From the NCBI GenBank assembly GCA_020848745.1, contig JADLHM010000115.1:1-50848 (forward strand): a DNA stretch of 50,848 nt, given 5' to 3'. The notes under the pieces are model-generated. The model made no database searches. It had not been told where the DNA came from and was given only the letters and a program-made list of their open reading frames with translations. This DNA comes from Deltaproteobacteria bacterium. Its GTDB lineage: Bacteria > Desulfobacterota > Binatia > UTPRO1. Each line of letters opens with the position of its first letter. Position 1 is the first letter of the stretch. Of the stretch, positions 35,817 to 50,848 are shown piece by piece. A program made the position numbers and the translations under genes.

Positions 35817-36080
35817 ATGGAACAGATGCTCGAACAAGCCGAAGCCGTCCTTCGCTTCTCCGGTGAGCTACAGCGGCGCATGTCCGAAGTCGGCGTCGAG
35901 GGCATCGGCGGTGTGATGAGCCTGTACGCGCAGCTGCGCAGCGCCCTCGAAAAGGTCTCGCACGACGAGCTGGATTGGGCGGCCGCCGAGGTGAACCGGG
36001 TGTTGGAGAGCCTCACGAAGATCAGCGACGAGGTGCGCCGCTTGAAGGGATTGAAGCTCTCGCTCGAAACCGGTCACTGA
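35817..36080 (+). CDS. Small coiled-coil protein of unknown function
   Basis: An 87-residue acidic helical protein without signal peptide. Heptad-like leucines run through VLRFSGELQRRM, LYAQLRSALEKV and VNRVLESLTKISDEVRRLKGL, so it probably oligomerises. A strong AGGAGG (35802-35807) stands 9 bases before the ATG, which supports real expression. No family recognised. Its last 7 bases overlap the convergent VanZ gene. Confidence 0.7.
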   Translation: MEQMLEQAEAVLRFSGELQRRMSEVGVEGIGGVMSLYAQLRSALEKVSHDELDWAAAEVNRVLESLTKISDEVRRLKGLKLSLETGH

Positions 36081-36568
36081 TCCGGTTCCGGCCCTCCGCG
36101 CCCGCGGCAGCGGGCGAAGATCAGCGTGCCGAGCGCGGCGCCCGTGGTGTCGATCAGCACGTCGACGCCCGAGCCCGTGCGGCTGGGCACGAGCGCCTGG
36201 TGCGCCTCGTCGAGCAGGGCGTACGCGGCGCAACAGGCGACCGCTCTGAGCGCCACCGCGCGCGAGATGCGCGCTCCGGGCTCGGTCATGGCGCGGCAGA
36301 TCAGCCCGCCGAGGATCGCGTACTCGGTGAGGTGCGCGCTCTTGCGTATGATGCTGTGCGCGAGCCGGAACCCGGCCGGCGTCAGCTCGCCGAAGAAGAA
36401 GCGGAGAACCGGGTCGATGTAGCTGTTCGTCGAGCGCGCCGAGAACGCGTCGGTCGAGAACCACGAGATGAACGCGGCCCACGCGACGACCGGCAACCAG
36501 CGCTGGATGCCGGCCGCCCACGCGGACCGCGGCAGCTCAGACGATCTCGTTGACGGCTCGCTGGACAA
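36074..36568 (-). CDS. VanZ family membrane protein
   Basis: A 164-residue protein with the VanZ pattern: WLPVVAWAAFISWFST (TM1), HSIIRKSAHLTEYAILGGLICRA (the conserved KxxHxxEY block and TM2), ALRAVACCAAYALLDEAHQALVPSRTGSGVDVLIDTTGAALGTL (DE-HQ and D-DT motifs with TM3/4). The family is linked to low-level teicoplanin resistance and envelope functions, with no certain biochemistry. Its start overlaps the upstream small ORF by 32 bases, so the two are co-transcribed. Confidence 0.88.
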   Translation of the reverse strand: MSSEPSTRSSELPRSAWAAGIQRWLPVVAWAAFISWFSTDAFSARSTNSYIDPVLRFFFGELTPAGFRLAHSIIRKSAHLTEYAILGGLICRAMTEPGARISRAVALRAVACCAAYALLDEAHQALVPSRTGSGVDVLIDTTGAALGTLIFARCRGRGGPEPDQ

Positions 36569-36836: not shown

Positions 36837-38108
36837 TCAGTCGCGGCGTTCGAGGGCGATCACGTACTCGTAGCGGCTGCGCTCGAGCGCGCCCTCGACT
36901 TTGCGGCCGTTGATGACCAACGTCGGGGTCGACTTGACGCCAAGTCGGCCGCCGGCGTTCGCGTCGGCGAGGACGCGTGAGCGCGCCGCCGGGTCGTCGA
37001 GACACGCGGTGAACTGCTCGGCCGGAATGCCGAGCCCGACCGCCTTCGCGACGAGATCATCGCGCCCGAGCTTGTCCTGCCCGCGAAAGAGGAGGTCGTG
37101 ATACTCCCAGAACTTGCCGCTGCGCGCGGCGCATTCGGCGGCGATCGCCGCCTGGCAGGCGGATCGGTGCATGCGGGTGGTCACGTTCGGATTGCAATCC
37201 GCGTCGAGCGGGAAGTGGTGGAACACGATGCGTACGCGGTCCGGATGGCGCGCGGCGAGCTCGTGGAGGTCGCGAAACGCCATGGCGCAGGCCGGGCACT
37301 CGAAGTCGGAAAACTCGATGATCGTGAGCGGGGCGCTCTCGGGGCCCTTGGCGTGCGTGCTCGGCGGGAGGTCTGTGGTGACCGGGAGCGTCGTGTACCA
37401 GTCGAAGAACTCACGGTCGCGCGCCTTCACGTCGTCGGCCGTCATGGTCGCGCCCGAGATCGGCCGCGCGGCGAAGTGCAGGGCGGCGATCACGGCGATG
37501 CCCGCCAGGATGATGCCGACGCCGCCGAGCGCGCGCCGCGATGTGAGCACGGGCCGGGCGCTCCGCGCCAGATCGACGCGGACGAGGCGCCACACGAGCA
37601 CGGCCGTCGCGATCACGAGCAGGTACATCGCGGCGCAGAGAAGGCAGAAGGCGCCGATCGCGAACGTCGAGATGCCCGCCATGTACACGGACACGGCCAC
37701 GTTCCAGAGCGCGAGCCCGAGCGTCAGGAGGCTCGCGTGCGAGCGGGCGTCGCCGACCGCCTGCCCGCGGCGATACAGGAGAACGGCGAGCGTCACGTAG
37801 CTCAGGAAGCCCCATGCGGCCATCGGGACGCCGAGCAGCACGCTGTACGGGCTCATCAGCACGGCGTCGCAATTCACCGCCGCGTTGACGTTGCAGAAGC
37901 TCGTGTACGAGCCGTGGGTCGCCGCGAGCTGCGCGTGCAGATAGAGCTGGATGAGGGCGATCGCAGCCGAGAGCCCGGTCAGGATCCAGAGGGCGCGTTC
38001 GAGGCCGCCGGTGCGTGCCGCGGGGATCCGCAGGCGGGTCGGCGCCGGCGTCGGCCCGCCCCGGCGACGCCCGGAATTCCGCTGCTGCGTCGCCCCTTTG
38101 TGCGCCAT
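36837..38108 (-). CDS. VKOR-DsbA fusion: disulfide-bond formation protein
   Basis: A 423-residue two-domain enzyme that would make disulfides in exported proteins and pass electrons to quinone. N-terminal vitamin K epoxide reductase domain with four helices: loop cysteines in CNVNAAVNCDAV and active-site CxxC in AFCLLCAAMYL. After a linker comes a periplasmic DsbA-like thioredoxin domain with CPAC in FSDFECPACAMAF and the cis-Pro in KSTPTLVING. All redox cysteines are present. A basic 35-residue N-terminal tail precedes TM1. It fits the large number of Cys-rich secreted proteins here. ATG 38108. Confidence 0.93.
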   Translation of the reverse strand: MAHKGATQQRNSGRRRGGPTPAPTRLRIPAARTGGLERALWILTGLSAAIALIQLYLHAQLAATHGSYTSFCNVNAAVNCDAVLMSPYSVLLGVPMAAWGFLSYVTLAVLLYRRGQAVGDARSHASLLTLGLALWNVAVSVYMAGISTFAIGAFCLLCAAMYLLVIATAVLVWRLVRVDLARSARPVLTSRRALGGVGIILAGIAVIAALHFAARPISGATMTADDVKARDREFFDWYTTLPVTTDLPPSTHAKGPESAPLTIIEFSDFECPACAMAFRDLHELAARHPDRVRIVFHHFPLDADCNPNVTTRMHRSACQAAIAAECAARSGKFWEYHDLLFRGQDKLGRDDLVAKAVGLGIPAEQFTACLDDPAARSRVLADANAGGRLGVKSTPTLVINGRKVEGALERSRYEYVIALERRD

Positions 38109-39203: not shown

Positions 39204-40979
39204 CTAGAACTGGTACGTCAACCGCAGCGCCGTTTCCGAACGGCCGCGATTCGTACCGAGGAGCCACGGATCGAACACGCCCTTCTGCACGTCGCTCTGG
39301 CCCGGGATGAAATAGCGCTGGGTCAGGTTCACGATGAAGTTCGGCGTGACGACCCAGTCGACGTTCCAGAACGGGTACAGGCTGTTCGAGTTGACCGGAT
39401 CGTAGATCATGCCGAGCAGCGGGACGACCGATCCGCCCTTGTAGAAGGTGAAGATCGCGAGCGTGACCAGCGACTCCCAGCTCCGGACGTCGTCGCGGAA
39501 GCTGCCGTTGCCGTTCGGATCGTTGCAGGGCTGGTCCTTCGGCGCGCCGCAGTACGGACGGGAGCGCGCGCCGGCGGTCGGCAGGTCGAGCGCCGACGTG
39601 AGCGTGTCCTCGTTGTGCATGATGTGGTGCAGGAACCACTGGCCGGTGATGAAGAAGGTGGTCTTCTTGTTGAGCGAGCGGATCCACGTGGGGCGGTCGA
39701 AGGCGATCATGCCCTTCCACATGTCCTTGCGCGTGGTGCCGGGAAGGAGCGGCGCGAACGTCGTCTCCTTGTCGCGGTCGAGCATGTAGATGCCGAAGTC
39801 GTAGACCGTTTCCAGGCGGAAGATCGCCTGCGTCCAGTCGCCCTCGAAGTAGTTGGCCGAGATGCCGACGGTGTGGATGTACGGCGTGATGTACTCGACC
39901 GGGAGCGTGCCCTTCGCGAGGAGCTGCTGGGTCCGGATCTGGCCTTCCGGGGTCGGCGTGATGCCTCGGACGGGCGAGAACGGCGAGCCGTCGTCGCCGG
40001 ACCAGCGCTGGTAGAAGTAGTGCAGGCCGACCTGCAGGCCGTTCGGGAAGACGCCCGAGAATCGCACGCCGACCTGGCTGTTGTCGACCGGATTGCGGTC
40101 GTAGTCGCCCTGCTTGAAGAGCGCCGAGCCCTTCATCAGGCGCTCGAGCGGACCGCCCGTCGTCGGGTTGCGGAACGGGGCCAGGAAGGCGCCGTCCTCG
40201 CGGTTGAAGAGGGGGTTCTGGATGCGCAGACCCCACGGCCTCGGCAGATAGCTCACCTTCACCGGGCGCCAGTCGCCGGGGTTCCAGTACGCTTCGAGGA
40301 AGACGTTCGAGACCTTGCCGATGTTGCCGATGTCCCAGAGGCCCTTCGCCATCCAGAGCGGGATGCGGAGGTCGTCCCAGCCGAAGGACGGCGGCGGGAC
40401 CTCCATGATGAAGTGCCACGAGGTGTCGAGCGGGTTGGCGCGGTCGAGCATGCGGAAGTCGTCCGCCTCGCCCCAGATGATCTGCTGCTTGCCGAGCCGG
40501 AAGCTCAGCGGCGCGTCGGCGAGCTTGATGTCGACGTAGAGCTCGCGGAGCTGGTTCTCGAACTTGACGGCGTCGCGCGCGCCGTTCGACATGTCGTTGA
40601 TGTCGCGGAGGGCGGCGCGCCCCGGCTTCCGACCCCGGAAATCACGCTCGCGGAGCGTCGGCTCGTAGTCGTAGATGCTGTCGTAGACGCCGCGATACAG
40701 CAGGAAGAACTTCGAGCTTTCGATGAAGGGGAGGTCGATGCGATCGATCCATTTCCCCCGGTCGATCCAGTTCCAGTCGACGCGGGCTCGCATCGTGTTG
40801 CGCTGCTGGACGAAATGGTACTCGTCCACGTCGGGATGCCGCACGATGTTCTGCGACTGCAAGCTGCCCGATAGCTCGAGCGGACCGTACTTCATCGTCG
40901 CCGATGCCGGCGACGCGCTGACCAGGGTGAGCGCCGCCACAGCAACTGCGCGGCGCCAGGTCTGACCCGTTCCCGTCAT
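39204..40979 (-). CDS. DUF1302 outer-membrane beta-barrel protein
   Basis: A 591-residue porin-like protein. Signal peptide (AVAVAALTLVSASPASA), then long alternating beta-strand segments and DUF1302 blocks: LRELYVDIKLADAPLSFRLGKQQIIWGEADDFRMLD, DPLDT-like NPLDTSWHFI, SLNKKTTFFITGQWF. It ends in aromatic TYQF with the terminal Phe typical of Bam-inserted barrels. DUF1302 members are often linked to uptake or export of hydrophobic compounds. A GGAGG precedes ATG 40979. It follows the stalk lipoprotein on the same strand, with a strong hairpin between. Confidence 0.92.
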   Translation of the reverse strand: MTGTGQTWRRAVAVAALTLVSASPASATMKYGPLELSGSLQSQNIVRHPDVDEYHFVQQRNTMRARVDWNWIDRGKWIDRIDLPFIESSKFFLLYRGVYDSIYDYEPTLRERDFRGRKPGRAALRDINDMSNGARDAVKFENQLRELYVDIKLADAPLSFRLGKQQIIWGEADDFRMLDRANPLDTSWHFIMEVPPPSFGWDDLRIPLWMAKGLWDIGNIGKVSNVFLEAYWNPGDWRPVKVSYLPRPWGLRIQNPLFNREDGAFLAPFRNPTTGGPLERLMKGSALFKQGDYDRNPVDNSQVGVRFSGVFPNGLQVGLHYFYQRWSGDDGSPFSPVRGITPTPEGQIRTQQLLAKGTLPVEYITPYIHTVGISANYFEGDWTQAIFRLETVYDFGIYMLDRDKETTFAPLLPGTTRKDMWKGMIAFDRPTWIRSLNKKTTFFITGQWFLHHIMHNEDTLTSALDLPTAGARSRPYCGAPKDQPCNDPNGNGSFRDDVRSWESLVTLAIFTFYKGGSVVPLLGMIYDPVNSNSLYPFWNVDWVVTPNFIVNLTQRYFIPGQSDVQKGVFDPWLLGTNRGRSETALRLTYQF

Positions 40980-41090: not shown

Positions 41091-42326
41091 CTAACGCGGC
41101 GTACGGACCTGCGACGCCGGGATCAGCGCCGCGCCCGGACCCGGCAGACCGGCCACCGTGTTGATGGCGGCGGCCTGCGTCGCCGGGATGCAGAAGATCG
41201 AGGCGAGCGTCCCCTGCTGCGTGCCGCACTGACCCGTCCGCGAGATGGTCGTGCCGAAGCAGGGCTGGAGCTGCGACTCGCACGTGCCGGCGCCGGGCGA
41301 GAGGTCCTCGCAATCGGTCGTCGGCCCGCTGCTGAGGAAGCACTGCCGGAAGGGCTGCCCGGAGCAGACGCCGATCGGCGGGTTGTTCTCGCAGAGGCCG
41401 CTCGCGGGACAGACGCCGTTCGGGTTGATGCAGGAGTTCGGCTGGATCTGGCCCGGGCAGAAGCAGGTGGCTCCGAACGTCGAGTTGAGGCAGGCGACGT
41501 TCGCGTCGACCGAGACCGTGCCCGTGGTGAGCGGGTTCAGGTCGATGTTGAGGTTGCCGACGGGGCTGCCGTTCGGCTCGCAGTCGTTCGAGGTGCTGCC
41601 GGCATCCGGCGGCGCGCCGCCCGCGTTCTGGAAGAGATCGCTGATGCCGCCCACGTCGCACGGCGCGCCCGGCGTCTTGCCGCCGTCGCAGGTGCCGCCC
41701 TTCACGCCGTCGTTCGGCGTCGGGTCACCGACGCAAGGCGGGCAGGGCTTGTTCTGGTCGACGACCAGGTACACCTTCGAGAGCAGCTTCACGCTGCTCT
41801 CGCCGCACCCGCTCTCGCAGTTGTACGTGCCGGTGATCGCCTCACGGAACTGGTTGATGACGCAGGAGGAGACGCCGCCCGACGAGAGCGGCAGCGGCGA
41901 GCCGAAGGTCGTGCCGACGAGCTCCGAGCCGTCGACCGTGCAGTTCACGCCGTCGGCGCAGTCGAGCTTGGTCGTGACCTTCGCTTCGCGGGTCGCGACC
42001 GAGTCGTGCGCGATGCCTGTCCAGCCGGTGTCGAGGTCGGAGCCGCCGAGGCTCGTCACGGTGACGTTGAGCGCGGTGCCTTCGCACACGGTGCCGGTCG
42101 AGGTCGCGGTCGGTTCCGGCGTTGGCGCGACGGTGCCTTCGGTCTCGACCGGTGTCGTGGTCGGCTCGACGTCGGTCGCCCCCGGCGTCGCGGTCGGCGG
42201 CTTCGGGGTCACCGTCACTACGGGAGTGCCCTTGGGATCGTCGTTGTCGTTGTTGTCGTCACCACAGCCCGCGATGGCCAATGCCGCGACCATGGCGAGC
42301 GCGAAACATCTCGTCCGTGTGCTCAT
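41091..42326 (-). CDS. Lipoprotein with Thr/Pro stalk and Cys-rich domain
   Basis: A 411-residue predicted lipoprotein of unknown function. Lipobox ALAIAG-C21 followed by an acidic Asp/Asn run, then residues 31-79, a Thr/Pro/Val stalk (TPVVTVTPKPPTATPG, VEPTTTPVETEG, PTPEPTATSTG) that looks like an O-glycosylation target. The rest is a Cys-rich beta domain (about 24 Cys; CFCPGQIQPNSC, CSGQPFRQCFLSSG) ending in a hydrophobic INTVAGLPGPGAALIP. A homologous C-terminal half occurs in the partial gene at 50274. AGGAGGAG precedes ATG 42326. It is divergent from the GT-C fusion gene. Confidence 0.85.
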   Translation of the reverse strand: MSTRTRCFALAMVAALAIAGCGDDNNDNDDPKGTPVVTVTPKPPTATPGATDVEPTTTPVETEGTVAPTPEPTATSTGTVCEGTALNVTVTSLGGSDLDTGWTGIAHDSVATREAKVTTKLDCADGVNCTVDGSELVGTTFGSPLPLSSGGVSSCVINQFREAITGTYNCESGCGESSVKLLSKVYLVVDQNKPCPPCVGDPTPNDGVKGGTCDGGKTPGAPCDVGGISDLFQNAGGAPPDAGSTSNDCEPNGSPVGNLNIDLNPLTTGTVSVDANVACLNSTFGATCFCPGQIQPNSCINPNGVCPASGLCENNPPIGVCSGQPFRQCFLSSGPTTDCEDLSPGAGTCESQLQPCFGTTISRTGQCGTQQGTLASIFCIPATQAAAINTVAGLPGPGAALIPASQVRTPR

Positions 42327-42375
42327 GAAAACTCTCCTCCTTGAGGGGTCGACCACTCCCGTTGGCGTGCGGGGC

Positions 42376-42405
42376 TCGATAGCAAATGGGTGATTTTTCT
42401 GTCAA
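42376..42405 (-). promoter_or_regulatory. Promoter of the stalk lipoprotein
   Basis: On the minus strand TTGACA (42405-42400), 18-base spacer, TATCGA (42381-42376), 50 bases before ATG 42326. The -35 is a consensus match. Confidence 0.5.
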
Positions 42406-42556
42406 GGAACGGCACTCGCCTTTGCCGGAAGTATGACGCTCGCGCAGCGTCCGAGGCAACGCGAACCTCCGCCGCGCGGCGGGGGAAGTATTCCGCACCG
42501 GACGTCGTCCGCCTTTCTTTCAATTTGGAATGCCCTGTGCTTAAGACTCGCCCCGC

Positions 42557-45500
42557 ATGCGACCCGTGAAGCGATGGTTCGGCGCGGCGGCACTCGTGTG
42601 GATCGGATGCGTCGCGGCGGCGGACGTCGCCGGTGCGCAGTTCATCAAGAACGGCGACTTCTCGCAGGGATCCGCCGGCACCCCCACCGACTGGCGCATC
42701 GACCGCTGGGACACCAATACGGGCACGACGGAGTTCCTCTGGAAGGCTCCGAGCGGGTCCGAGCCGGGGCAGGCGGGCATTCGCAACACCAAGCCCAACG
42801 ACGCCCGCTACGTGCAGGATCTGCACGTGAAAGAGGAGACCTGGTACCACATCGCGGGCAAGATCCGGACGGAGAACGTCGGGCAGGGGGCGATCGGGGC
42901 CTACCTCTCCCTGATGGAGGGGTTCCAGAACTCCCAGGATCTCAAGGGCTCGCAGGATTGGCAGCCGGTCGAGCTCTGGGTGAAGACCGAGAAGTGGCAG
43001 GACCGCCTCACTCTGGCGCTCCGCGTCGGCGGGTACAGCAGCCTCAATACGGGCGAGGCCTGGTTCTCCGACATCACCGTCGAGGCGGTCTCCGGCCCGC
43101 CGCCGAACGCGAAGAATGTCTATCAGCCGGCGTCGGGGGGCGGCGGCTTCGCGCCGCTCAGCCTCTGGGCCCTGATCCTGCTCCTCGGCCTCATGACGGC
43201 GGCGCTCTGGTACTACCTCCGGCCGCCGCCCGGCGGCGGCGATCGTGGCACGCCGGCGGAGAAGCTCGGGCTCCTCGCCTTCCTGCTCGCGCTGCTCGCG
43301 ATCAAGATGGCCGTGGCGCCGCACTTCGGCTTCGACACCGATCTCGGCACCTACAAGGCGTGGGCGATACGCCTCGCCGACCGCGGCCCGGCGGATTTCT
43401 ACGCCCCCAACTACTTCTGCGACTACCCGCCCGGCTACCTCTACGTTCTCTGGCTGCTCGGCAGCATCTACCAGGGGATGCACCTCGCGACCTCGGGGCC
43501 GCTCTCGACCCTCATCATCAAGATGCCGGGCCTGATCGCGGACCTCCTGTCGAGCGTGCTCCTCTACGCGCTGCTCCGCCCGCGCGCCGGGCAGCGGACG
43601 ACCTGGCTCGTCGTGCTCGCGTACTCGCTGAATCCGGCGGTCATCTTCAACTCGGCGATCTGGGGGCAGACCGACTCGCTCTTCACGCTCGAGCTCTTCC
43701 TCGGGGCGCTCCTGCTCTTCGAGGGCCAGATCGCGTTCGGCTGGGCCGTCCTGATGATCGCCGCCATCACCAAGCCGCAGGCGCTGATCTTCCTGCCGCT
43801 CTTCGCGTCCTGGCGGGGCAACTGGGACCGGCCGGAGCGGCCGATCGTCGCCGCCGCCACGGGGCTCGCCGTCGCCGCGGTGCTCACGCTTCCCTTCGTC
43901 GAGCCGCTCGGACTCGCCGCCCACTACCAGAAGGGCGCCGCGTACTACGCCGAGACGTCGGTGAACGCCTTCAACCTGATGGCGATCCTCGGCGGCTTCC
44001 GGCAGTCCGATAGCGCCATCCTGCTGTTCATGAGCTACAAGGCGTGGGCCACCGCTCTGGTGGTCCTCTTCTTCGTCTATCTCGCCTTCCTGATCTACCG
44101 GCGCCGCGACGCCGAGATGTACGTGTACCTGATGTTCCTCTTGCCGCTCGGCTTCTTCATGCTGTCGACGCGCATGCACGAGCGCTACCTCTTCCCGTGC
44201 CTCCTCTTCCTGACGCCGCTCTTGCCCCGCCGCAAGCACCTGTGGGCCTTCTACGGCGTCCTCACCGCCACCTACTATTTGAACCTCTGGTACATCCTGC
44301 GGGCGTTGAACTCCGAGGTCTTCCTCGACAAGTACGATCCGTTCGGGATCGCGGTCTCGATCGTGAACGTCGGGCTCTTCGCCGCGGCGCTGGCCGAGGG
44401 CTGGCGGATGACGCGGCTGGCGCCCGAGCCCCTGCCGCTGCCGTGCGGCGACGGCGACACGACGCTCGCGCCCGCGGCTCCGGTGGTCGCGCGCGCGGCG
44501 GCGCCGGCGGCGAAGCCCGTGCCCGCGAGGGCGATGGCCAAGGCGGCGTCCGCAAAGGCGCGGGACGAGCGCGGGCCGGAGGACGTTCCCGCGGCGAAGC
44601 CCCGCGGCTGGGTGTCCTTGCCGCAGTGGGAGATCGAGGCGGGGGCGTCCTGCTATCGCATCACCCGGCGCGACCTCGCCCTCGCCCTCCTGCTGGTCGT
44701 CGTCGCCGGCGGACTGCGCTTCTGGAAGCTCGAGCAGCCGAACGAGCTCGTCTTCGACGAGGTCTACTTCGTCGAGCAGGGCAAGAACTACCTCCGCGGC
44801 AAGGAGTTCATGGACCCGCATCCGCCGTTCGCGAAGCTCGCGATCGGCGCCAGCGTGGCCCTCTTCGGAGGCGAGGCGAACGGCTACCGCATCTTCAACG
44901 CGGTGTGCGGCACGCTGCTCGTCGGCGTCGCGTACCTGACCGGCCGGAAGCTCCTCGGAGACGGCCTCGCGGCGTTCGCGACGGCGGCGGCCGTCGCGTT
45001 CGACGGGCTCTTCATCGTCGACTCGCGGATCGCCGTCATCGACATCTGGTACGTTACCTTCGGAGCGATCTCCTACCTCCTGTTGTTCCAGTATTTGCGG
45101 ACGCCGCCGGTCGAGCGCCGCCCCGGGATCCTGGTGCTCCTCGGGCTCGCGCTCGGACTGAACCTCGCGAGCAAGCTCTTCATTCCCGCGTTCACCTGGA
45201 TGACGGTGGTGTTCTTCCTCGCCGTCATCTCGGTGCACGCGGAGCGCTTGCACCGCAGCCGGCAGCCGCTGGCGCGCGGGCTCGCGCCCGCGGCGCTCGT
45301 CACGTGCGCGGCCGCCGCGATGTACCTGGCCGTCTTCCTGCCGCACTACTGGCTCGGCTGGTGGCACAGCATCTGGGACATCCCCAAGTACTTCAAGGAC
45401 GTGGTCGGGTACGAGGCGGCGGTCGCCGACGCGACCCACCCCTACTCGTCGAAGTGGTACACCTGGCCGTTCCTGCTGCGGCCGGTCTGGTACCACTTCA

Positions 45501-46087
45501 AGGACGTCCCGAACGATCCGTCGCACGTGGTCGGCGTCTGGGGCGGCGGGAACCCGATCCTCTGGTGGGGCGGCTTCGCGGCGATCCTGGTCGCGCTCGC
45601 ACGCGGCATCCGCGAGCGTCATTTCGCGAGCGTGTTTCTCTGCACCGCCTTCATCCTCCACTACATCGTCTGGTCGTGGATCGGTCGGACGCTCTTCCAG
45701 TACCACTATCTCCCGTCGCTCTACGCGAGCCTGCTCGCGCTCGGGATGGCGCTCGGGATGCTGTGGCGTGCGCCGGCCGACGACGGGTTCTGGGTCGGCG
45801 CCGGCGTCGCGCTCCTGGTGCCGCTGTTGCCGACCCTGATCGGGCCGTTCCCCCGCTGGGGGGTGCTTCTGTGGGCCGCGATCGCGGGCGTCTACGGCGC
45901 GGCGGTTGTCTACCGGCGGCTGCCGACGTTCCAGTGGCCGCCCGGCCGCGTCGTCGTGGTGGCGTACGGGGCGGTGACGATCGCGCTCCTCGTCTATTTC
46001 TATCCCCTCTGGTCCGGCATGCCGATCGGCCGGGACGGCTACAGCGTCCGCATGTGGTTCCAGAACGGGCCCGCCCGCTGGATCTAG
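42557..46087 (+). CDS. Fused double GT-C glycosyltransferase with PMT-type C-terminal half
   Basis: An 1176-residue membrane protein. Residues 1-27 signal peptide; about 28-185 a jelly-roll, carbohydrate-binding-like domain (FIKNGDFSQGSAGTPTDW, GEAWFSDITVEA); about 195-620 a first GT-C transferase with FDTDLGTYKAW after its first core helix and about ten helices (NPAVIFNSAIWGQTDS, STRMHERYLFPCLLFL); about 630-700 an Ala/Pro/Arg linker; about 705-1176 a PMT (PF02366-like) half with the DE motif in NELVFDEVYFVEQGKNYLRG, DPHPPFAKLAIG, LNLASKLFIPAF and FQYHYLPSLYASLL. PMT enzymes move mannose from polyprenol-phosphate to Ser/Thr of exported proteins. The sugar and acceptor here are inferred. Two active GT-C cores in one chain are unusual. 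Confidence 0.88.
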   Translation: MRPVKRWFGAAALVWIGCVAAADVAGAQFIKNGDFSQGSAGTPTDWRIDRWDTNTGTTEFLWKAPSGSEPGQAGIRNTKPNDARYVQDLHVKEETWYHIAGKIRTENVGQGAIGAYLSLMEGFQNSQDLKGSQDWQPVELWVKTEKWQDRLTLALRVGGYSSLNTGEAWFSDITVEAVSGPPPNAKNVYQPASGGGGFAPLSLWALILLLGLMTAALWYYLRPPPGGGDRGTPAEKLGLLAFLLALLAIKMAVAPHFGFDTDLGTYKAWAIRLADRGPADFYAPNYFCDYPPGYLYVLWLLGSIYQGMHLATSGPLSTLIIKMPGLIADLLSSVLLYALLRPRAGQRTTWLVVLAYSLNPAVIFNSAIWGQTDSLFTLELFLGALLLFEGQIAFGWAVLMIAAITKPQALIFLPLFASWRGNWDRPERPIVAAATGLAVAAVLTLPFVEPLGLAAHYQKGAAYYAETSVNAFNLMAILGGFRQSDSAILLFMSYKAWATALVVLFFVYLAFLIYRRRDAEMYVYLMFLLPLGFFMLSTRMHERYLFPCLLFLTPLLPRRKHLWAFYGVLTATYYLNLWYILRALNSEVFLDKYDPFGIAVSIVNVGLFAAALAEGWRMTRLAPEPLPLPCGDGDTTLAPAAPVVARAAAPAAKPVPARAMAKAASAKARDERGPEDVPAAKPRGWVSLPQWEIEAGASCYRITRRDLALALLLVVVAGGLRFWKLEQPNELVFDEVYFVEQGKNYLRGKEFMDPHPPFAKLAIGASVALFGGEANGYRIFNAVCGTLLVGVAYLTGRKLLGDGLAAFATAAAVAFDGLFIVDSRIAVIDIWYVTFGAISYLLLFQYLRTPPVERRPGILVLLGLALGLNLASKLFIPAFTWMTVVFFLAVISVHAERLHRSRQPLARGLAPAALVTCAAAAMYLAVFLPHYWLGWWHSIWDIPKYFKDVVGYEAAVADATHPYSSKWYTWPFLLRPVWYHFKDVPNDPSHVVGVWGGGNPILWWGGFAAILVALARGIRERHFASVFLCTAFILHYIVWSWIGRTLFQYHYLPSLYASLLALGMALGMLWRAPADDGFWVGAGVALLVPLLPTLIGPFPRWGVLLWAAIAGVYGAAVVYRRLPTFQWPPGRVVVVAYGAVTIALLVYFYPLWSGMPIGRDGYSVRMWFQNGPARWI

Positions 46088-46212
46088 GCAGGTTGCTGAA
46101 AAAGAGCCATCTGCTGCGTTGCTCGGTCGCTCACTGGTGCGGCGTAGCTTCCGCTACGCCTTCGCGTTCGCTCCCTCACGCCTTGCAACTGACCCTTTTT
46201 GAGCAACCTGCC
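46087..46212. mobile_element. MITE-like element, left copy (18-bp TIRs)
   Basis: A 126-bp unit bounded by GGCAGGTTGCTGAAAAAG (46087-46104) and its inverted partner at 46195-46212 (17 of 18 match), with an internal hairpin GGCGTAGC-TTCC-GCTACGCC (46141-46160). It has no ORF of its own and begins on the last base of the GT-C fusion stop codon. Confidence 0.65.
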
Positions 46213-46307
46213 GGGGGTGCCACTGGCGCATGGTGGGACGCTCGCTGCGCTCGCGTTCATCAATCGCATTGGGTGGATGGCCCCATTGTGCGAGTAAGAA
46301 ACGAGTA

Positions 46308-46428
46308 AGAATGAATGCGCGGAGCGCAGCGAACGCGGAGGCGTAGCGAAGCTACGCCGCACCCGCTCTGAGCACGGCAAGTGAGCGACCGAGCAACGCA
46401 GCAGATGGCTCTTTTCCAGCGACCTACC
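46308..46428. mobile_element. Inverted, decayed second copy of the MITE-like element
   Basis: Positions 46381-46428 repeat 46087-46134 in reverse orientation with 3 mismatches in 48; the internal hairpin GGCGTAGC-GAA-GCTACGCC recurs at 46340-46358, and a shared GCGAACGC word follows. The far TIR is not recognisable, so the inner boundary is approximate. Confidence 0.55.
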
Positions 46429-47601
46429 AGGCGTCGCATCGCCGCGCTGGCCGTGTTCCTCGGTGTGACGGCGCTCTACTACGCGTCGAACCCGCGCCTG
46501 CCGGACGCGTACAAGCACCACGTGTACGTCGCCGACGCGTGGCTGCACGGCCGGCTCTGGGTGCAGGGCTACCCGGGGCACTATCACGACTGGATCACCG
46601 TGAACGGCCAGGTGCACTCACCGTTCGCGCCGACGCCGGCGATCCTGCTCGTACCGTTCGTCTGGTGGTGGGGCACCGCGTTCAACATGAACTTCTTCAG
46701 CATGGCGGTGGCGGGCCTGAACGCCATGCTGTGCTGGCTCGTGTTGTTGCGGGCCGGGGTCGGCGCGCGGCGTGCGGCGCTCGGCACGATGATCTTCGCC
46801 TTCGGCACCGTGAACTGGTTCTCCGCGGTCATCGGCACCACGTGGTTCCTCGCGCATCTCTGCGTCGAGCTCTTCCTGCTGTTGGCGCTGTTCGAGGTGT
46901 TCGGCCGGGGGCGGGCCTGGCTCGTCGGCGCGGCCTTCGGCTTCGCGATGCTGGCGCGCGCGAACGTCGCGACCGCCGCTCCCGGCGTGTTCCTCCTGTT
47001 GGTGCATCGCCACGCCGTCCGGACGAGCTTCTTCCGCTTCTGCGATGGGCGCGCGATCGTGCGCGGCCTGCTCTTCGGGCTCGGGTTCGCGTTGCCGATC
47101 GCGATCGAGCTCGGGCTGAACTACGCCCGCTTCGGGAACGCGTTCGACACGGGGTACGGCAAGGCCTCCGAGATCTACATGGCGGGGAAGAAATACGGCT
47201 GGTACGACTGGCACTACATCCCGCAGCACGTCCACATCGCGATCTTCAAGGGCTGGGAGTACATCGAGGAGTTCCCGTTCTTGAAGCCGTCGCCCGAGGG
47301 TCTGTCGATCCTGCTGACGAGCCCCGTGCTCCTCTACGCGTTCGCGGCCTCGCGGCGCGACGCGACGGTGCGCCTGCTCTGGCTCGCGACGGCGCTCACG
47401 GCGGCGGCGCTGATCCCGTACTTCTACCAGGGCTGGGTGCAGTTCGGGTACCGCTACCTGCTCGACGCGCTCCCGTACGTGATCGTGCTAGCCGCGATCG
47501 GCATGCGCGATCGCGGCTCCGGACCGCTCCTCTTCCTGGCCGAGTCGTCGGCGCTACTGAACGCGCTCGGCGTGTACTGGGGGAAGAAACTGGGCTGGTA
47601 G
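46405..47601 (+). CDS. GT-C-like polytopic membrane protein (putative glycosyltransferase)
   Basis: A 398-residue protein with about nine membrane helices. The first helix (AALAVFLGVTALYYAS) is followed by a periplasmic loop HVYVADAWLHGRLWVQGYPGHYHDWITVNG, with acidic and His residues where GT-C enzymes bind the lipid-phosphate sugar, then SPFAPTPAILLVPFV. ATG 46405 is used. The frame stays open upstream to GTG 46381, but those 8 codons and the next several lie in the inverted repeat, and no good ribosome site is present for either. The last 48 bases overlap the convergent GT2-methyltransferase gene. Specific sugar unknown. Confidence 0.75.
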   Translation: MALFQRPTRRRIAALAVFLGVTALYYASNPRLPDAYKHHVYVADAWLHGRLWVQGYPGHYHDWITVNGQVHSPFAPTPAILLVPFVWWWGTAFNMNFFSMAVAGLNAMLCWLVLLRAGVGARRAALGTMIFAFGTVNWFSAVIGTTWFLAHLCVELFLLLALFEVFGRGRAWLVGAAFGFAMLARANVATAAPGVFLLLVHRHAVRTSFFRFCDGRAIVRGLLFGLGFALPIAIELGLNYARFGNAFDTGYGKASEIYMAGKKYGWYDWHYIPQHVHIAIFKGWEYIEEFPFLKPSPEGLSILLTSPVLLYAFAASRRDATVRLLWLATALTAAALIPYFYQGWVQFGYRYLLDALPYVIVLAAIGMRDRGSGPLLFLAESSALLNALGVYWGKKLGW

Positions 47602-48915
47602 CGTGAAGCCCGGCGAGGGCGGCGTGACCGCGGCCGGGCCCGCGTCGCGGCGGAGCGCCAGCACGAGCTCGCTCTGGAACACGTAGGCCGTGTCCTCGAG
47701 CGCGAAGCCCCATTCGCGGCAGAGCTGGATCAGGCGGCCGCGGGTGTAGTGCGTGATGTGCTCGTCCTTGTAGCCCCCCGGCGCGAAGAAGCCGTAGAGC
47801 GGCTCGATCGTGCGCCAGCCGACGGTGTCGTAGTCGGGCGTGCCGAGGACGAGGAGGCCGCCGGGACGCAGCACGCGCCGCAGCTCGGCGAAGATGCGGT
47901 CGTCGTAGGGAATGTGCTCGATCACCTGCGAGCAGACGACGCAGTCGAAGGTGGCGTCGCGCACCGGCAACGCGAAGATCGATCCCCGGACGAGCGGCAC
48001 GTCGTAGCGCCGCATGTAACGGAGCTTGTTGTGCAGGATGTCGAGCCCCACCACGTCGTTGATCGACTGCAGGATCACGCTCGAGCCGCAGCCGATGTCG
48101 AGGGTCTTGCCGGCGCCGCGCGCCCACGCGCAGATGATCTCGTGGCGCCGCCGCTGCCACCAGCGTTGCAGCGGGATCGGGCTGTAGAACGCGCGTTCGT
48201 CGTAGTCCGCCGACTCGATCGAGCTGCGAAGCTTCCACAGCCGGACGAAGGCCTTCAGGAACGCGACGCCGAACGCGACGATGCGCGCGTGCGACGACCC
48301 GCGCTCGCGCGGGTAGTAGGTGAAGGGGATCTCGATGATGCGCCACCCTTCGGCGTGGATCTTGACCAGGATCTCTTCCAGGACCTCGAAGTTGGTGCCT
48401 TCGAGATCGAGGCCCCGCACGGCGTCGGCGCGGTAGAGCCGGAATCCGCTCGAGAGATCGCGCACCGGCAGTCCGAGCCCGCGCGCGAAGAAGGCGTTCA
48501 GCACGCGCGACAGGATCAGGCGGTTGCGCGGCATGTACGCCACCCCGCCGCGGACGTAACGCGACGCGATCACCACCTCGGCGCGCTCGCGGCTGCGCCA
48601 GAGCTTCACGATGAAGTCCGGGTCGTGCGAGAGGTCGGCGTCGAGCGTCAGGATGTAGGTTCCGGCCGCGGTCGCGAGCCCCTCGCGGAGCGCGCCGCCG
48701 TATCCCGGCAACGTCTGGCGGATGACCCGGGCTCCGCCGGCCGCGGCCGCCTCGGGCGTACCGTCGGTGGAGCCGCCGTCGACCACCACCAGCTCGTAGG
48801 TGCAGCCGATCGCGCGCAGCACGCCGACGGCGCGCGGGAGGAGCCGTTCGACGTTCTCGCACTCGTTCAGGACCGGGAGGACGACGCTGAGATCGAGCGG
48901 CCGGGGCGCGGACAT
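47554..48915 (-). CDS. GT2 (DPM1-like)-SAM methyltransferase fusion
   Basis: A 453-residue cytoplasmic protein in two parts. Residues 1-230: GT2 fold of the polyprenol-phosphate mannosyl/glucosyltransferase kind (SVVLPVLNECENVERLLP, VVVDGGSTDGTPE, LDADLSHDPDF with the metal DxD, VRDLSSGFRLYR). Residues about 260-420: class I methyltransferase with TLDIGCGSSVI (SAM loop), VVGLDIL, FDCVVCSQVIEHIP and LRRVLRPGGLLVLGTPD. ATG 48915 (MSAPRPLDLSVVLP) is chosen; the frame further upstream is antisense to another gene. A lipid-linked sugar made by the first half may be methylated by the second (inference). Confidence 0.88.
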   Translation of the reverse strand: MSAPRPLDLSVVLPVLNECENVERLLPRAVGVLRAIGCTYELVVVDGGSTDGTPEAAAAGGARVIRQTLPGYGGALREGLATAAGTYILTLDADLSHDPDFIVKLWRSRERAEVVIASRYVRGGVAYMPRNRLILSRVLNAFFARGLGLPVRDLSSGFRLYRADAVRGLDLEGTNFEVLEEILVKIHAEGWRIIEIPFTYYPRERGSSHARIVAFGVAFLKAFVRLWKLRSSIESADYDERAFYSPIPLQRWWQRRRHEIICAWARGAGKTLDIGCGSSVILQSINDVVGLDILHNKLRYMRRYDVPLVRGSIFALPVRDATFDCVVCSQVIEHIPYDDRIFAELRRVLRPGGLLVLGTPDYDTVGWRTIEPLYGFFAPGGYKDEHITHYTRGRLIQLCREWGFALEDTAYVFQSELVLALRRDAGPAAVTPPSPGFTLPAQFLPPVHAERVQ

Positions 48916-49029
48916 ACGACGGCCGAGGCTAGCAAAGGACCGCTCGATCGTACACCGCGCGAATGCGAAGGAGCCGTTCGATGCACCGAATAGACTCGCC
49001 GACGGCGGGGTGGTACTTGAGGCGCGCGC

Positions 49030-49746
49030 GTGTCCCGTCTCCCCGGCATTTCGGCGTTCTTCCCCGCGTACAACGAAGAGGCAAACGTCGGCGCCATGGT
49101 CGAACGCTTGCACGGCGTCTTGCCGCGGGTGAGCGACGACTACGAGATCATCGTCGTCGACGACGGCAGCCAGGACCGGACCGCCGAGATCGCCGACGGC
49201 CTGGCGGCGGCCGACCCGCGGGTGCGCGTCGTGCACCATCCGCAGAACCGCGGGTACGGCGGCGCGCTCAAGTCGGGATTCGCCGCCAGCCGGAAGGCCT
49301 ACGTCTTCTTCACGGACGGAGACGGGCAGTTCGACGTGAACGAGATCGAGAGGCTGCTGCCGTACGTGCCCGAGCACGACGTCGTGATTGGCTATCGCAT
49401 CGACCGCGCCGAAGGCGGCCTCAGGCGGGTCAACGCCGGAGCGTGGAACTGGCTCGTGCGACGCCTCTTCGGCATTCCGTCGCGCGACGTGGACTGCGCC
49501 TTCAAGCTGTTCGACCGCCGGGTGTTCGACGTCGTGAAGCCCGAGGCCGAGGGCGCCATGATCAGCACCGAGATCCTCGCGCGCACGGTGCGCGCCGGCT
49601 TCCGGATCACCGAGGTGGGCGTCCATCACTTTCCGCGCCGGCACGGGAAGCCGACCGGGGCGAACCCTCTCGTGATCGCGCGGGCGTTCTATGAGCTCTT
49701 CAAGCTGTACCGGCGCATCACCCGCGAATCCGCCGCGCGAGGGTGA
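49030..49746 (+). CDS. GT2 glycosyltransferase, DPM1-like polyprenol-phosphate sugar synthase
   Basis: A 238-residue cytoplasmic GT2 without membrane helices. Motifs: AFFPAYNEEANVGAMV, IIVVDDGSQDRT, HPQNRGYGGALKSGF, FTDGDGQFDVNEI (DxD-type site) and SRDVDCAFKLFDRRVF, all typical of dolichol/undecaprenol-phosphate mannose synthases. It would load a sugar from its nucleotide donor to polyprenol phosphate, supplying the GT-C enzymes. GTG 49030 with GAGG 7 bases upstream. Divergent from the GT2-methyltransferase gene and convergent with the next. Confidence 0.92.
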   Translation: MSRLPGISAFFPAYNEEANVGAMVERLHGVLPRVSDDYEIIVVDDGSQDRTAEIADGLAAADPRVRVVHHPQNRGYGGALKSGFAASRKAYVFFTDGDGQFDVNEIERLLPYVPEHDVVIGYRIDRAEGGLRRVNAGAWNWLVRRLFGIPSRDVDCAFKLFDRRVFDVVKPEAEGAMISTEILARTVRAGFRITEVGVHHFPRRHGKPTGANPLVIARAFYELFKLYRRITRESAARG

Positions 49747-49755
49747 TGCGCCGGG

Positions 49756-50208
49756 CTAGCTGACGACTCGCGGCAGCGAGCCGCGCAAAGAGCCCGGATG
49801 AAATCGTAGGCCACCGTGCTCGAGCGCTTCTCGCAGCGTCGCGACGGTGCCGCGAAAGAGCTCGGACCGTGCATTCAGTACGCAACGTCCCGCCTCGGCC
49901 GGCGGCAGGAGCTTCACCACCGCGCGAGCCGAGTCGAGAATGAGGTGCCAGCGATGCGAAAGTACGGCGGCATCCGGCGGCTCGCCGTCGAAATCCAGGG
50001 CGGAACTCGGTGACAGCCATCCCCGGATTTCCCCTGCGCGCATGAACGCTGCCCGGTCACCATGGCGCTCGATGTAGTCGAGAACTCGCAGCGTTTCCGT
50101 TTCGGTCGCGGGATAGTAGTCGGCTCGCAGAGACCACAGGCAGCGATCACGATAGTCGTCCACGAGCCGGCGGACCGCAACCTCGATTGCTTCCGCCTCC
50201 GGCCGCAT
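49756..50208 (-). CDS. Conserved hypothetical protein
   Basis: A 150-residue soluble protein with no family I can name. Visible blocks: VDDYRDRCLWSLRADYYPATETETLRVLDYIERHGDRAAF, AGEIRGWLSP and LLPPAEAGRCVLNARSELFRG. The YIERHGDRxAF block recalls small bacterial proteins that often stand alone or beside toxin-like genes, but I cannot assign a function. ATG 50208 is used; a GTG at 50253 would add 15 residues. Confidence 0.65.
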   Translation of the reverse strand: MRPEAEAIEVAVRRLVDDYRDRCLWSLRADYYPATETETLRVLDYIERHGDRAAFMRAGEIRGWLSPSSALDFDGEPPDAAVLSHRWHLILDSARAVVKLLPPAEAGRCVLNARSELFRGTVATLREALEHGGLRFHPGSLRGSLPRVVS

Positions 50209-50273
50209 GACGGCAACGGGAGCAGGCCCGCCGGCGGGGCGACAATGCTTCACGCGCCTGTCTGCTGCGTTTG

Positions 50274-50848
50274 CTAGGGACAGCTCGTCGCGATGCAGGT
50301 CCTCGTCGGGAGGACGATCGATCCGGGGCCCGGTAGGCCCGCGGCGGCGTTGACGGCGCCGCTCCGCGTTTCGCCGATGCAGAACGTTCCGACCTGGATC
50401 GGCCGCGTCTGACTCGGCGTGCCCGTGCGGGTGACCGGCCCGTTCGGCGCGCCAGCGGCATCGGTCGGTCCGAGGCAGCCGCGGGGCCTCGTCGAGCAGC
50501 CGTCGCCGTCCATGGGGCAGTCAGCGTCGGTCGTGCACGAGCGGAAGGTCTCGATCGCGCACAGCGAGTCGATGGGTCCGGCGTCGCACGCGCCCTCGCC
50601 GCCGCCGGCGACGCTGCAGACGCCGTCCTGGCACTGGTTCGGCTGGAGCTGGTTCGCGCAGTAGCAGGGCGCTCCGCTCGCCGCCGCGCCGACGCAGCTC
50701 GCCGCCGGGGCGAGCTCGCGGGTGCCGGTCGTGAGGTTCAGGGGGAGAGTCGAGCTGCCGATGTCGGCGCTCGCGCTCGGCGGGCAGTCGAAGCTCGTGT
50801 TCCCGAAGAACGGCGTCGTGCCGTCGGTGGTGCAGGGTTGGCCGTCGC
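50274..50848 (-). CDS. Partial Cys-rich secreted protein, paralogue of 41091-42326 (5' end outside window)
   Basis: The minus strand is open from the window edge to TAG 50274 (191 codons). The Cys pattern and spacing follow the C-terminal half of the stalk lipoprotein: CYCANQLQPNQC for CFCPGQIQPNSC, CAIETFRSCTTDADCP for the CSGQPFRQC region, and VGTFCIGETRSGAVNAAAG LPGPGSIVLP for FCIPATQAAAINTVAG LPGPGAALIP. The N-terminus, including any lipobox or stalk, is not in the window. Function unknown. Confidence 0.8.
   Translation of the reverse strand, partial: DGQPCTTDGTTPFFGNTSFDCPPSASADIGSSTLPLNLTTGTRELAPAASCVGAAASGAPCYCANQLQPNQCQDGVCSVAGGGEGACDAGPIDSLCAIETFRSCTTDADCPMDGDGCSTRPRGCLGPTDAAGAPNGPVTRTGTPSQTRPIQVGTFCIGETRSGAVNAAAGLPGPGSIVLPTRTCIATSCP

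Follow-up and report, generated by a model that had tools for sequence, protein, structure and literature searches.

Does a gene cluster that joins a protein O-mannosyltransferase (PMT) to a second membrane glycosyltransferase serve only the lipoproteins encoded on its flanks, or the secreted proteins of its host more generally? The question is raised by positions 41,091 to 50,848 of a 50,848-nucleotide stretch of DNA (hereafter the window) from Deltaproteobacteria bacterium, GTDB lineage Desulfobacterota, Binatia, UTPRO1 (assembly GCA_020848745.1, contig JADLHM010000115.1). The window is an entire contig (C115) of a genome of 4.88 Mb over 155 contigs. A preliminary description had proposed a self-contained O-glycosylation locus with its own lipoprotein substrates. 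Here we report that a PMT and a glycosyltransferase of the C fold (GT-C) are encoded as one polypeptide, which is probably an enzyme for general protein O-mannosylation with the flanking lipoproteins among its substrates; the locus would then not be a dedicated enzyme-substrate unit. The features concerned, including two domains of glycosyltransferase family 2 (GT2), are as follows.

41091..42326, minus strand: Cys-rich lipoprotein, likely substrate; start at 42326 (picked by eye from the open reading frame translation), leading to lipobox IAGC
42087..42263, minus strand: Thr/Pro-rich stalk of this lipoprotein, 59 residues with 16 Thr and 11 Pro
42557..46087, plus strand: fusion protein, 1176 residues
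42662..43096, plus strand: beta-sandwich domain, fusion residues ~36-180, predicted to fold like carbohydrate-binding modules
43151..44410, plus strand: GT87-like GT-C half, fusion residues ~199-618
44453..44644, plus strand: linker predicted to be disordered, fusion residues ~633-696 (pLDDT mostly <50)
44666..46084, plus strand: PMT half, fusion residues ~704-1176
46381..47601, plus strand: GTC2, membrane protein with a predicted GT-C fold
47554..48915, minus strand: GT2-methyltransferase (GT2 half 48211-48915, methyltransferase half 47557-48210)
49030..49746, plus strand: lone GT2, polyprenyl-phosphate-sugar-synthase type
50274..50848, minus strand: second Cys-rich lipoprotein, C-terminal part, truncated by the contig end

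The fusion protein

The C-terminal half of the fusion matches Pfam PMT (89.5 bits, cut-off 22.7), PMT_4TMC (59.3 bits, cut-off 32.4) and PMT_2, all above their cut-offs, and its predicted structure lies clearly nearest Pmt4 and Pmt1-Pmt2, not other GT-C folds. The PMT motifs, namely the acidic DE in the first loop, HPP..K and R-xx-F/Y, are invariant in 52 aligned fusions and were aligned to solved PMTs. The HPP..K motif is a mark of PMTs. Roles of these motifs are known from MtPMT, for which passages of the same source also give a preference for proline-rich sites (PMC12331936). The fusion differs from the eukaryotic PMTs (Pmt1-Pmt2, Pmt4) in that the Pfam scan gave no match to a MIR domain and in being joined to a second GT-C enzyme.

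Neither this second, preceding half nor GTC2 matched any PDB entry by sequence, and predicted folds were therefore used for both. The best fold matches of the preceding half are ALG3 and ALG6, and it is also like PimE. Pfam GT87 was above cut-off in four of five relatives scanned, four of the five having been picked because they were already listed in databases as GT87; the half in the window has no such match. The N-terminal beta-sandwich has the predicted fold of a carbohydrate-binding module (CBM) and may bind sugar, with no match to a Pfam CBM family.

The architecture recurs among 540 database proteins listed (the best 120 were examined), and the 52 aligned sequences hold invariant residues in both halves; because of this recurrence and invariance, the fusion is, as judged from sequence, more than a chance reading frame. 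Sequence and predicted fold together establish the domain order, the PMT motifs, the two GT-C cores and the CBM-like fold, and bear out the preliminary description of a PMT-type transferase fused to another GT-C enzyme. Database names of homologues include Candidatus Binatia and Binataceae. For one homologous locus, L037 (MWST01000025.1), NCBI taxonomy files UTPRO1 under Myxococcota, Polyangiaceae, a placement that may be outdated, other homologues being named Binatia.

Partner enzymes

The further GT-C-like protein of the preliminary description is GTC2, which gave no Pfam or NCBIfam match at E 0.01 and is GT-C by predicted fold. The GT2 domain fused to a methyltransferase, likewise confirmed, is nearest dolichyl-phosphate mannose (DPM) synthase among solved structures (5mlz, 1.9e-27; next ArnC, 1.1e-13). 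Two DPM1-like GT2 domains had been claimed, and only this one is clearly so: the best solved relative of the lone GT2 is ArnC (1.6e-15), followed at a distance by GtrB-type sll0501 (2.6e-10) and DPM synthase (2.2e-9), so that it is nearer ArnC/GtrB than DPM synthase. An extra GT2 gene lies directly behind the fusion in two of the five loci of the window's family fetched with that side (L038 13492-14292 in G004, L067 2369-3145 in G003).

Proposed pathway and known systems

The PMT half would attach the first mannose to Thr or Ser in the Thr/Pro-rich stalks of secreted proteins, and the tethered GT87-like half would lengthen the mannose chain; this two-step reading is proposed mainly because the fusion carries both enzyme kinds in one chain. 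Lipid-linked mannose for both halves would come from the GT2 half of the GT2-methyltransferase, and the carbohydrate-binding-like domain may hold the growing glycan. GTC2 and the lone GT2 could act as another pair of donor enzyme and transferase, adding one more sugar, and the methyltransferase domain may methylate a sugar of the glycan or of the donor. The Cys-rich lipoproteins on the two flanks would be likely substrates in the window's family, among other stalked proteins of the genome.

In actinobacteria, according to passages of PMC12757957, protein-bound mannose chains are begun by a GT-39 enzyme and extended by PimE, a GT-87 enzyme, using a lipid-linked donor; the chains described there comprise 1-3 mannoses and no other sugar, and Pro-Thr linkers are heavily mannosylated. 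As far as those passages go, the two systems are alike in having a PMT, a GT87-like enzyme and a DPM-synthase-like GT2, and candidate sites rich in Thr/Pro that are borne by secreted proteins and lipoproteins. PMT and PimE are separate proteins in actinobacteria, whereas here the PMT and the GT87-like enzyme share one polypeptide with a carbohydrate-binding-like domain; also unlike the actinobacterial system, the enzyme for the donor carries a fused methyltransferase and a further GT2/GT-C pair is present. That pair resembles three-component systems (GtrA/GtrB/Gtr, and the GT136 system in passages of PMC11127046), in that the lone GT2 would load a lipid carrier and work with GTC2.

A more elaborate scheme, in which the carbohydrate-binding domain hands the mannosylated stalk from the PMT to the GT87-like site, the GT2/GT-C pair and the methyltransferase cap the chain with a further, methylated sugar, and the resulting hetero-oligosaccharide on surface lipoproteins is coupled to folding (as the neighbouring disulphide genes may hint), seems to us rather doubtful.

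No report of a PMT-GT87-like fusion was found in the open-access literature searched, and the Binatota literature searched held nothing on protein glycosylation. A natural fusion of the initiating and extending enzyme kinds would be evolutionary evidence that GT87 enzymes extend chains started on proteins by a PMT. It makes both steps testable in one construct, and the locus also offers candidate sites and a putative capping module.

Distribution among related genomes

The sample comprised 58 genomes of the class in 15 families, f1 being the window's family. PF16192 (PMT_4TMC) served as the PMT marker and may miss remote PMTs; PF02366 was rejected as a marker, matching 14 of 14 genomes tried, even in families without coding for the Thr-Pro repeat TPTPTPT, as well as 8 of 14 controls (7 over cut-off). 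PMT_4TMC was found in 21 of the 58 genomes, i.e. throughout f1 (6/6), f6 (8/8) and f9 (7/7), and in none of the 37 genomes of the other 12 families. GTC2 occurs in 16 of the 21 PMT-bearing genomes (f1 6, f6 8, f9 2/7) and the methyltransferase half, at an identity of at least 60%, in 13 (f1 6, f9 7, f6 0/8); neither occurs in the 37 others. Both are associated with the PMT by Fisher's test (GTC2 p 2.5e-10, methyltransferase p 6.4e-8), with p values that overstate the case because genomes within a family are not independent and all positives come from three families. GTC2, the GT2-methyltransferase and the fusion form a co-occurring PMT-based enzyme set.

The Cys-rich family is distributed differently, in 20 of 58 genomes: f1 6/6, f4 5/5, f8 5/7, f10 2/2, f14 1/1, and one weak match (1.4e-4) in f6. 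It shows no association with the PMT (7/21 vs 13/37, p 1.0; outside f1 1/15 vs 13/37). Its members look secreted and lie at many loci, among them 41091-42293 of the window and L119 14828-17323 in the same genome; outside f1 they are almost confined to PMT-less genomes. A fused VKOR-DsbA, a disulphide-forming enzyme encoded near the cluster, was rejected as a partner by presence, since 47 of 58 genomes match, with or without a PMT, some over the DsbA part only.

Gene neighbourhoods

Secreted Cys-rich proteins of one family do stand on both flanks in the window, as first described (41091-42326 and 50274-50848, both minus strand, matching each other at 52 bits), with no Pfam or NCBIfam match to either, and lipoproteins with Thr/Pro stalks are encoded together with a PMT-type enzyme and a DPM-synthase-like enzyme for the donor. 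In f1 the lipoprotein gene lies beside and divergent to the fusion gene in 6/6 genomes (in G005 only its first 102 residues remain, at a contig start), an adjacency that persists in G003, although inserted genes separate other parts of the locus there. GTC2 and the GT2-methyltransferase are adjacent in 6/6 (G005 by the coordinates of matches), and Cys-rich genes follow the GT2 in the five genomes with that side seen. The linkage thus persists within the family, and the check for lost linkage does not refute the earlier claim there.

Such conservation favours a self-contained locus whose enzymes glycosylate only the Cys-rich lipoproteins on its flanks. So may the longest contigs of 10 of 29 fusion clusters (P0001-P0029), each equal in length to that of a lipoprotein cluster, which would suggest shared contigs. 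The linkage ends at the family border: all 15 fusion loci fetched from f6 and f9 (13.5-20 kb each) are without a Cys-rich homologue. In addition, the Cys-rich family is present in 13 of the 37 PMT-less genomes, and the genome of the window has one PMT_4TMC match, yet many places that code for stalks and a large, dispersed Cys-rich family (15 matches). A dedicated enzyme-substrate pair is rejected on co-occurrence outside f1, the description as self-contained with own lipoprotein substrates is not supported, and a locus of that kind appears quite improbable. A general machine whose genes adjoin some likely substrates in one family is the better reading.

In f6 the fusion gene is divergent to an adjoining VKOR-DsbA gene in 8/8 loci, with VanZ near; VKOR-DsbA is not beside the fusion in the seven f9 loci, and is informative only through its place next to the fusion in f1 and f6. 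The GTC2 homologue of f6 lies away from the fusion, where it forms a pair with the lone-GT2 homologue and has a DsbA-like gene nearby (4/4 loci fetched, of 8 genomes), so that f6 separates two modules that f1 holds at one locus. In the seven f9 genomes the methyltransferase is fused to the same GT2 and located away from the fusion gene; the two GTC2 loci fetched from f9 had nothing closely homologous to the lone GT2.

Behind the fusion, 8/8 f6 and 7/7 f9 loci carry a free-standing gene for a homologue of its beta-sandwich domain. Another, L060 7999-8667 (G000, the C43 contig), directly follows a gene for what looks by eye like a 3-oxoacyl-ACP synthase, and L061, L062, L070 and L071 resemble this arrangement as judged by gene length. 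Beside the fusion and the free-standing beta-sandwich gene, four of seven f9 loci encode a membrane protein of 663-673 residues that looks GT-C-like with a PA14-like C-terminus by eye (L051 12279-14270, L055 11373-13394, L056 11864-13882, L057 6149-8167). Two genes from the GTC2-GT2-DsbA group of one f6 genome (G010), L223 11324-12553 encodes a different lipoprotein-like protein with a Thr/Pro stalk.

Thr/Pro-rich stalks

The stalk was measured from the lipobox Cys to the next Cys, which gives the window lipoprotein 59 residues, not the 49 first reported. In five orthologues it is 49-57% identical to that of the window, compared with 57-94% for the Cys-rich domain. Of 185 database relatives of the lipoprotein 120 were listed, and 69 passed filters for length, lipobox and stalk length; 66 of these 69 have at least 30% Thr+Pro in the stalk, the median for the domain being 19%. 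The stalk of one relative, P0334, is almost pure Thr instead of Thr/Pro; we infer that it neighbours P0027, a fusion of 50% identity, solely from equally long longest contigs. A TP-rich stretch occurs in 24 of 47 Cys-rich proteins from f1 and in 0 of 29 from f4, f8, f10 and f14 (fetched subsets, with six proteins of <250 residues dropped).

Thr-Pro coding extends well beyond this family of proteins. The TPTPT pattern is found at 249 places in the genome of the window, against 21 for the reversed control, and thirty overlapping loci of these encode mostly large proteins with Cys-rich or repeat-like parts, whose secretion was judged by eye and by a crude hydrophobicity score, many being cut at the locus end.

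Stalks of Thr/Pro or poly-Thr could serve only as flexible spacers, unrelated to the PMT. Their composition is kept as the sequence drifts, which speaks against this, with the qualification that the gap between stalk and domain identity is small for the two farthest orthologues (51 vs 61 and 49 vs 57); the 66 Thr/Pro-retaining relatives speak against it as well. So does TPTPTPT-coding DNA, found at a median of 21 places in genomes with the PMT and at 1 in those without (per-genome p 4e-6, kinship uncorrected). Two results favour spacers and at the same time count among the points against general O-mannosylation by the fusion that are gathered below: TPTPTPT is abundant in f7, f11, f13 and f15, which have no PMT_4TMC match (f9, conversely, has the match and little TPTPTPT), and Thr runs occur in 10 of 29 Cys-rich proteins of PMT-less genomes (f4 9/15, f8 1/10). 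Taken together, we regard the spacer explanation as unlikely. The TPTPTPT-rich genomes without PMT_4TMC, with 17-64 places each, are G011, G023, G043, G050, G030, G036 and G057; these four families may be served by another O-glycosyltransferase, or by none.

Points against general O-mannosylation

Further points speak against the fusion as a general O-mannosylation enzyme. The NCBIfam equivalog model NF058602 for protein O-mannosyltransferase gives 32.5 bits, its cut-off being 800, so the PMT half does not count as an equivalog of the proteins that the model represents. The GT-C half in the window has no Pfam match even at E 0.5, and the placement of the two halves relative to each other is uncertain in the model (pTM 0.55). 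The GT2-methyltransferase is missing in 8/8 f6 genomes and GTC2 in 5/7 f9 genomes, hence neither is required wherever the fusion occurs. Counted over 15 families, the association of TPTPTPT with the PMT has p 0.064. Lastly, none of 237 genes in the f6 and f9 fusion loci encodes a Thr/Pro stalk; the f1 loci have 13 such genes among 94, every one a member of the Cys-rich family.

This absence of stalked neighbours in f6 and f9 would also fit enzymes that act on an envelope glycolipid or polysaccharide, as Gtr-, ArnT- and ALG-type GT-C enzymes do, with the stalked lipoproteins as bystanders. Lipid-linked glycans are the substrates of ALG3 and ALG6, which the first half matches best in fold. GT2 and GT-C pairs build polysaccharide side chains, and a CBM-bearing GT-C enzyme is known there, according to passages of PMC11127046. 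We give this alternative a minor share of the probability, and general protein O-mannosylation remains our preferred reading.

Gene calls and contig context

Scanning the window for Rfam families (gathering threshold) and for tRNAs gave no match. Gene calls and profile scans placed the following genes to the left of the cluster.

36074-36496: VanZ-like gene
36837..38108, minus strand: VKOR-DsbA fusion, disulphide-forming enzyme (context; Pfam VKOR, DSBA, Thioredoxin_4)
39204..40979, minus strand: DUF1302 protein (context; Pfam DUF1302)

The DUF1302 gene adjoins the lipoprotein gene in 5/5 f1 loci fetched. An open reading frame at 49756-50253 was rejected as a gene; it is not in the gene calls, and the relative L040 has only ~25 bases between the flanking genes. 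For the GT2-methyltransferase the longest open reading frame would start at 49644, a start rejected in favour of 48915, where the gene caller places it.

The final 127 bases of the window (50722-50848) are the end of contig C25, reversed, in exact overlap. The N-terminus of the second Cys-rich protein lies on that contig (L119 19237-19998), with a lipobox and a Thr/Pro stalk. Downstream of it are two stalked Cys-rich proteins (564 and 831 residues), then a DsbA-like gene and then a 311-residue protein, and further on two more Cys-rich proteins of 822 and 878 residues. By eye, the Cys-rich cluster of this contig also has an apparent ABC-transporter and MlaD-like pair.

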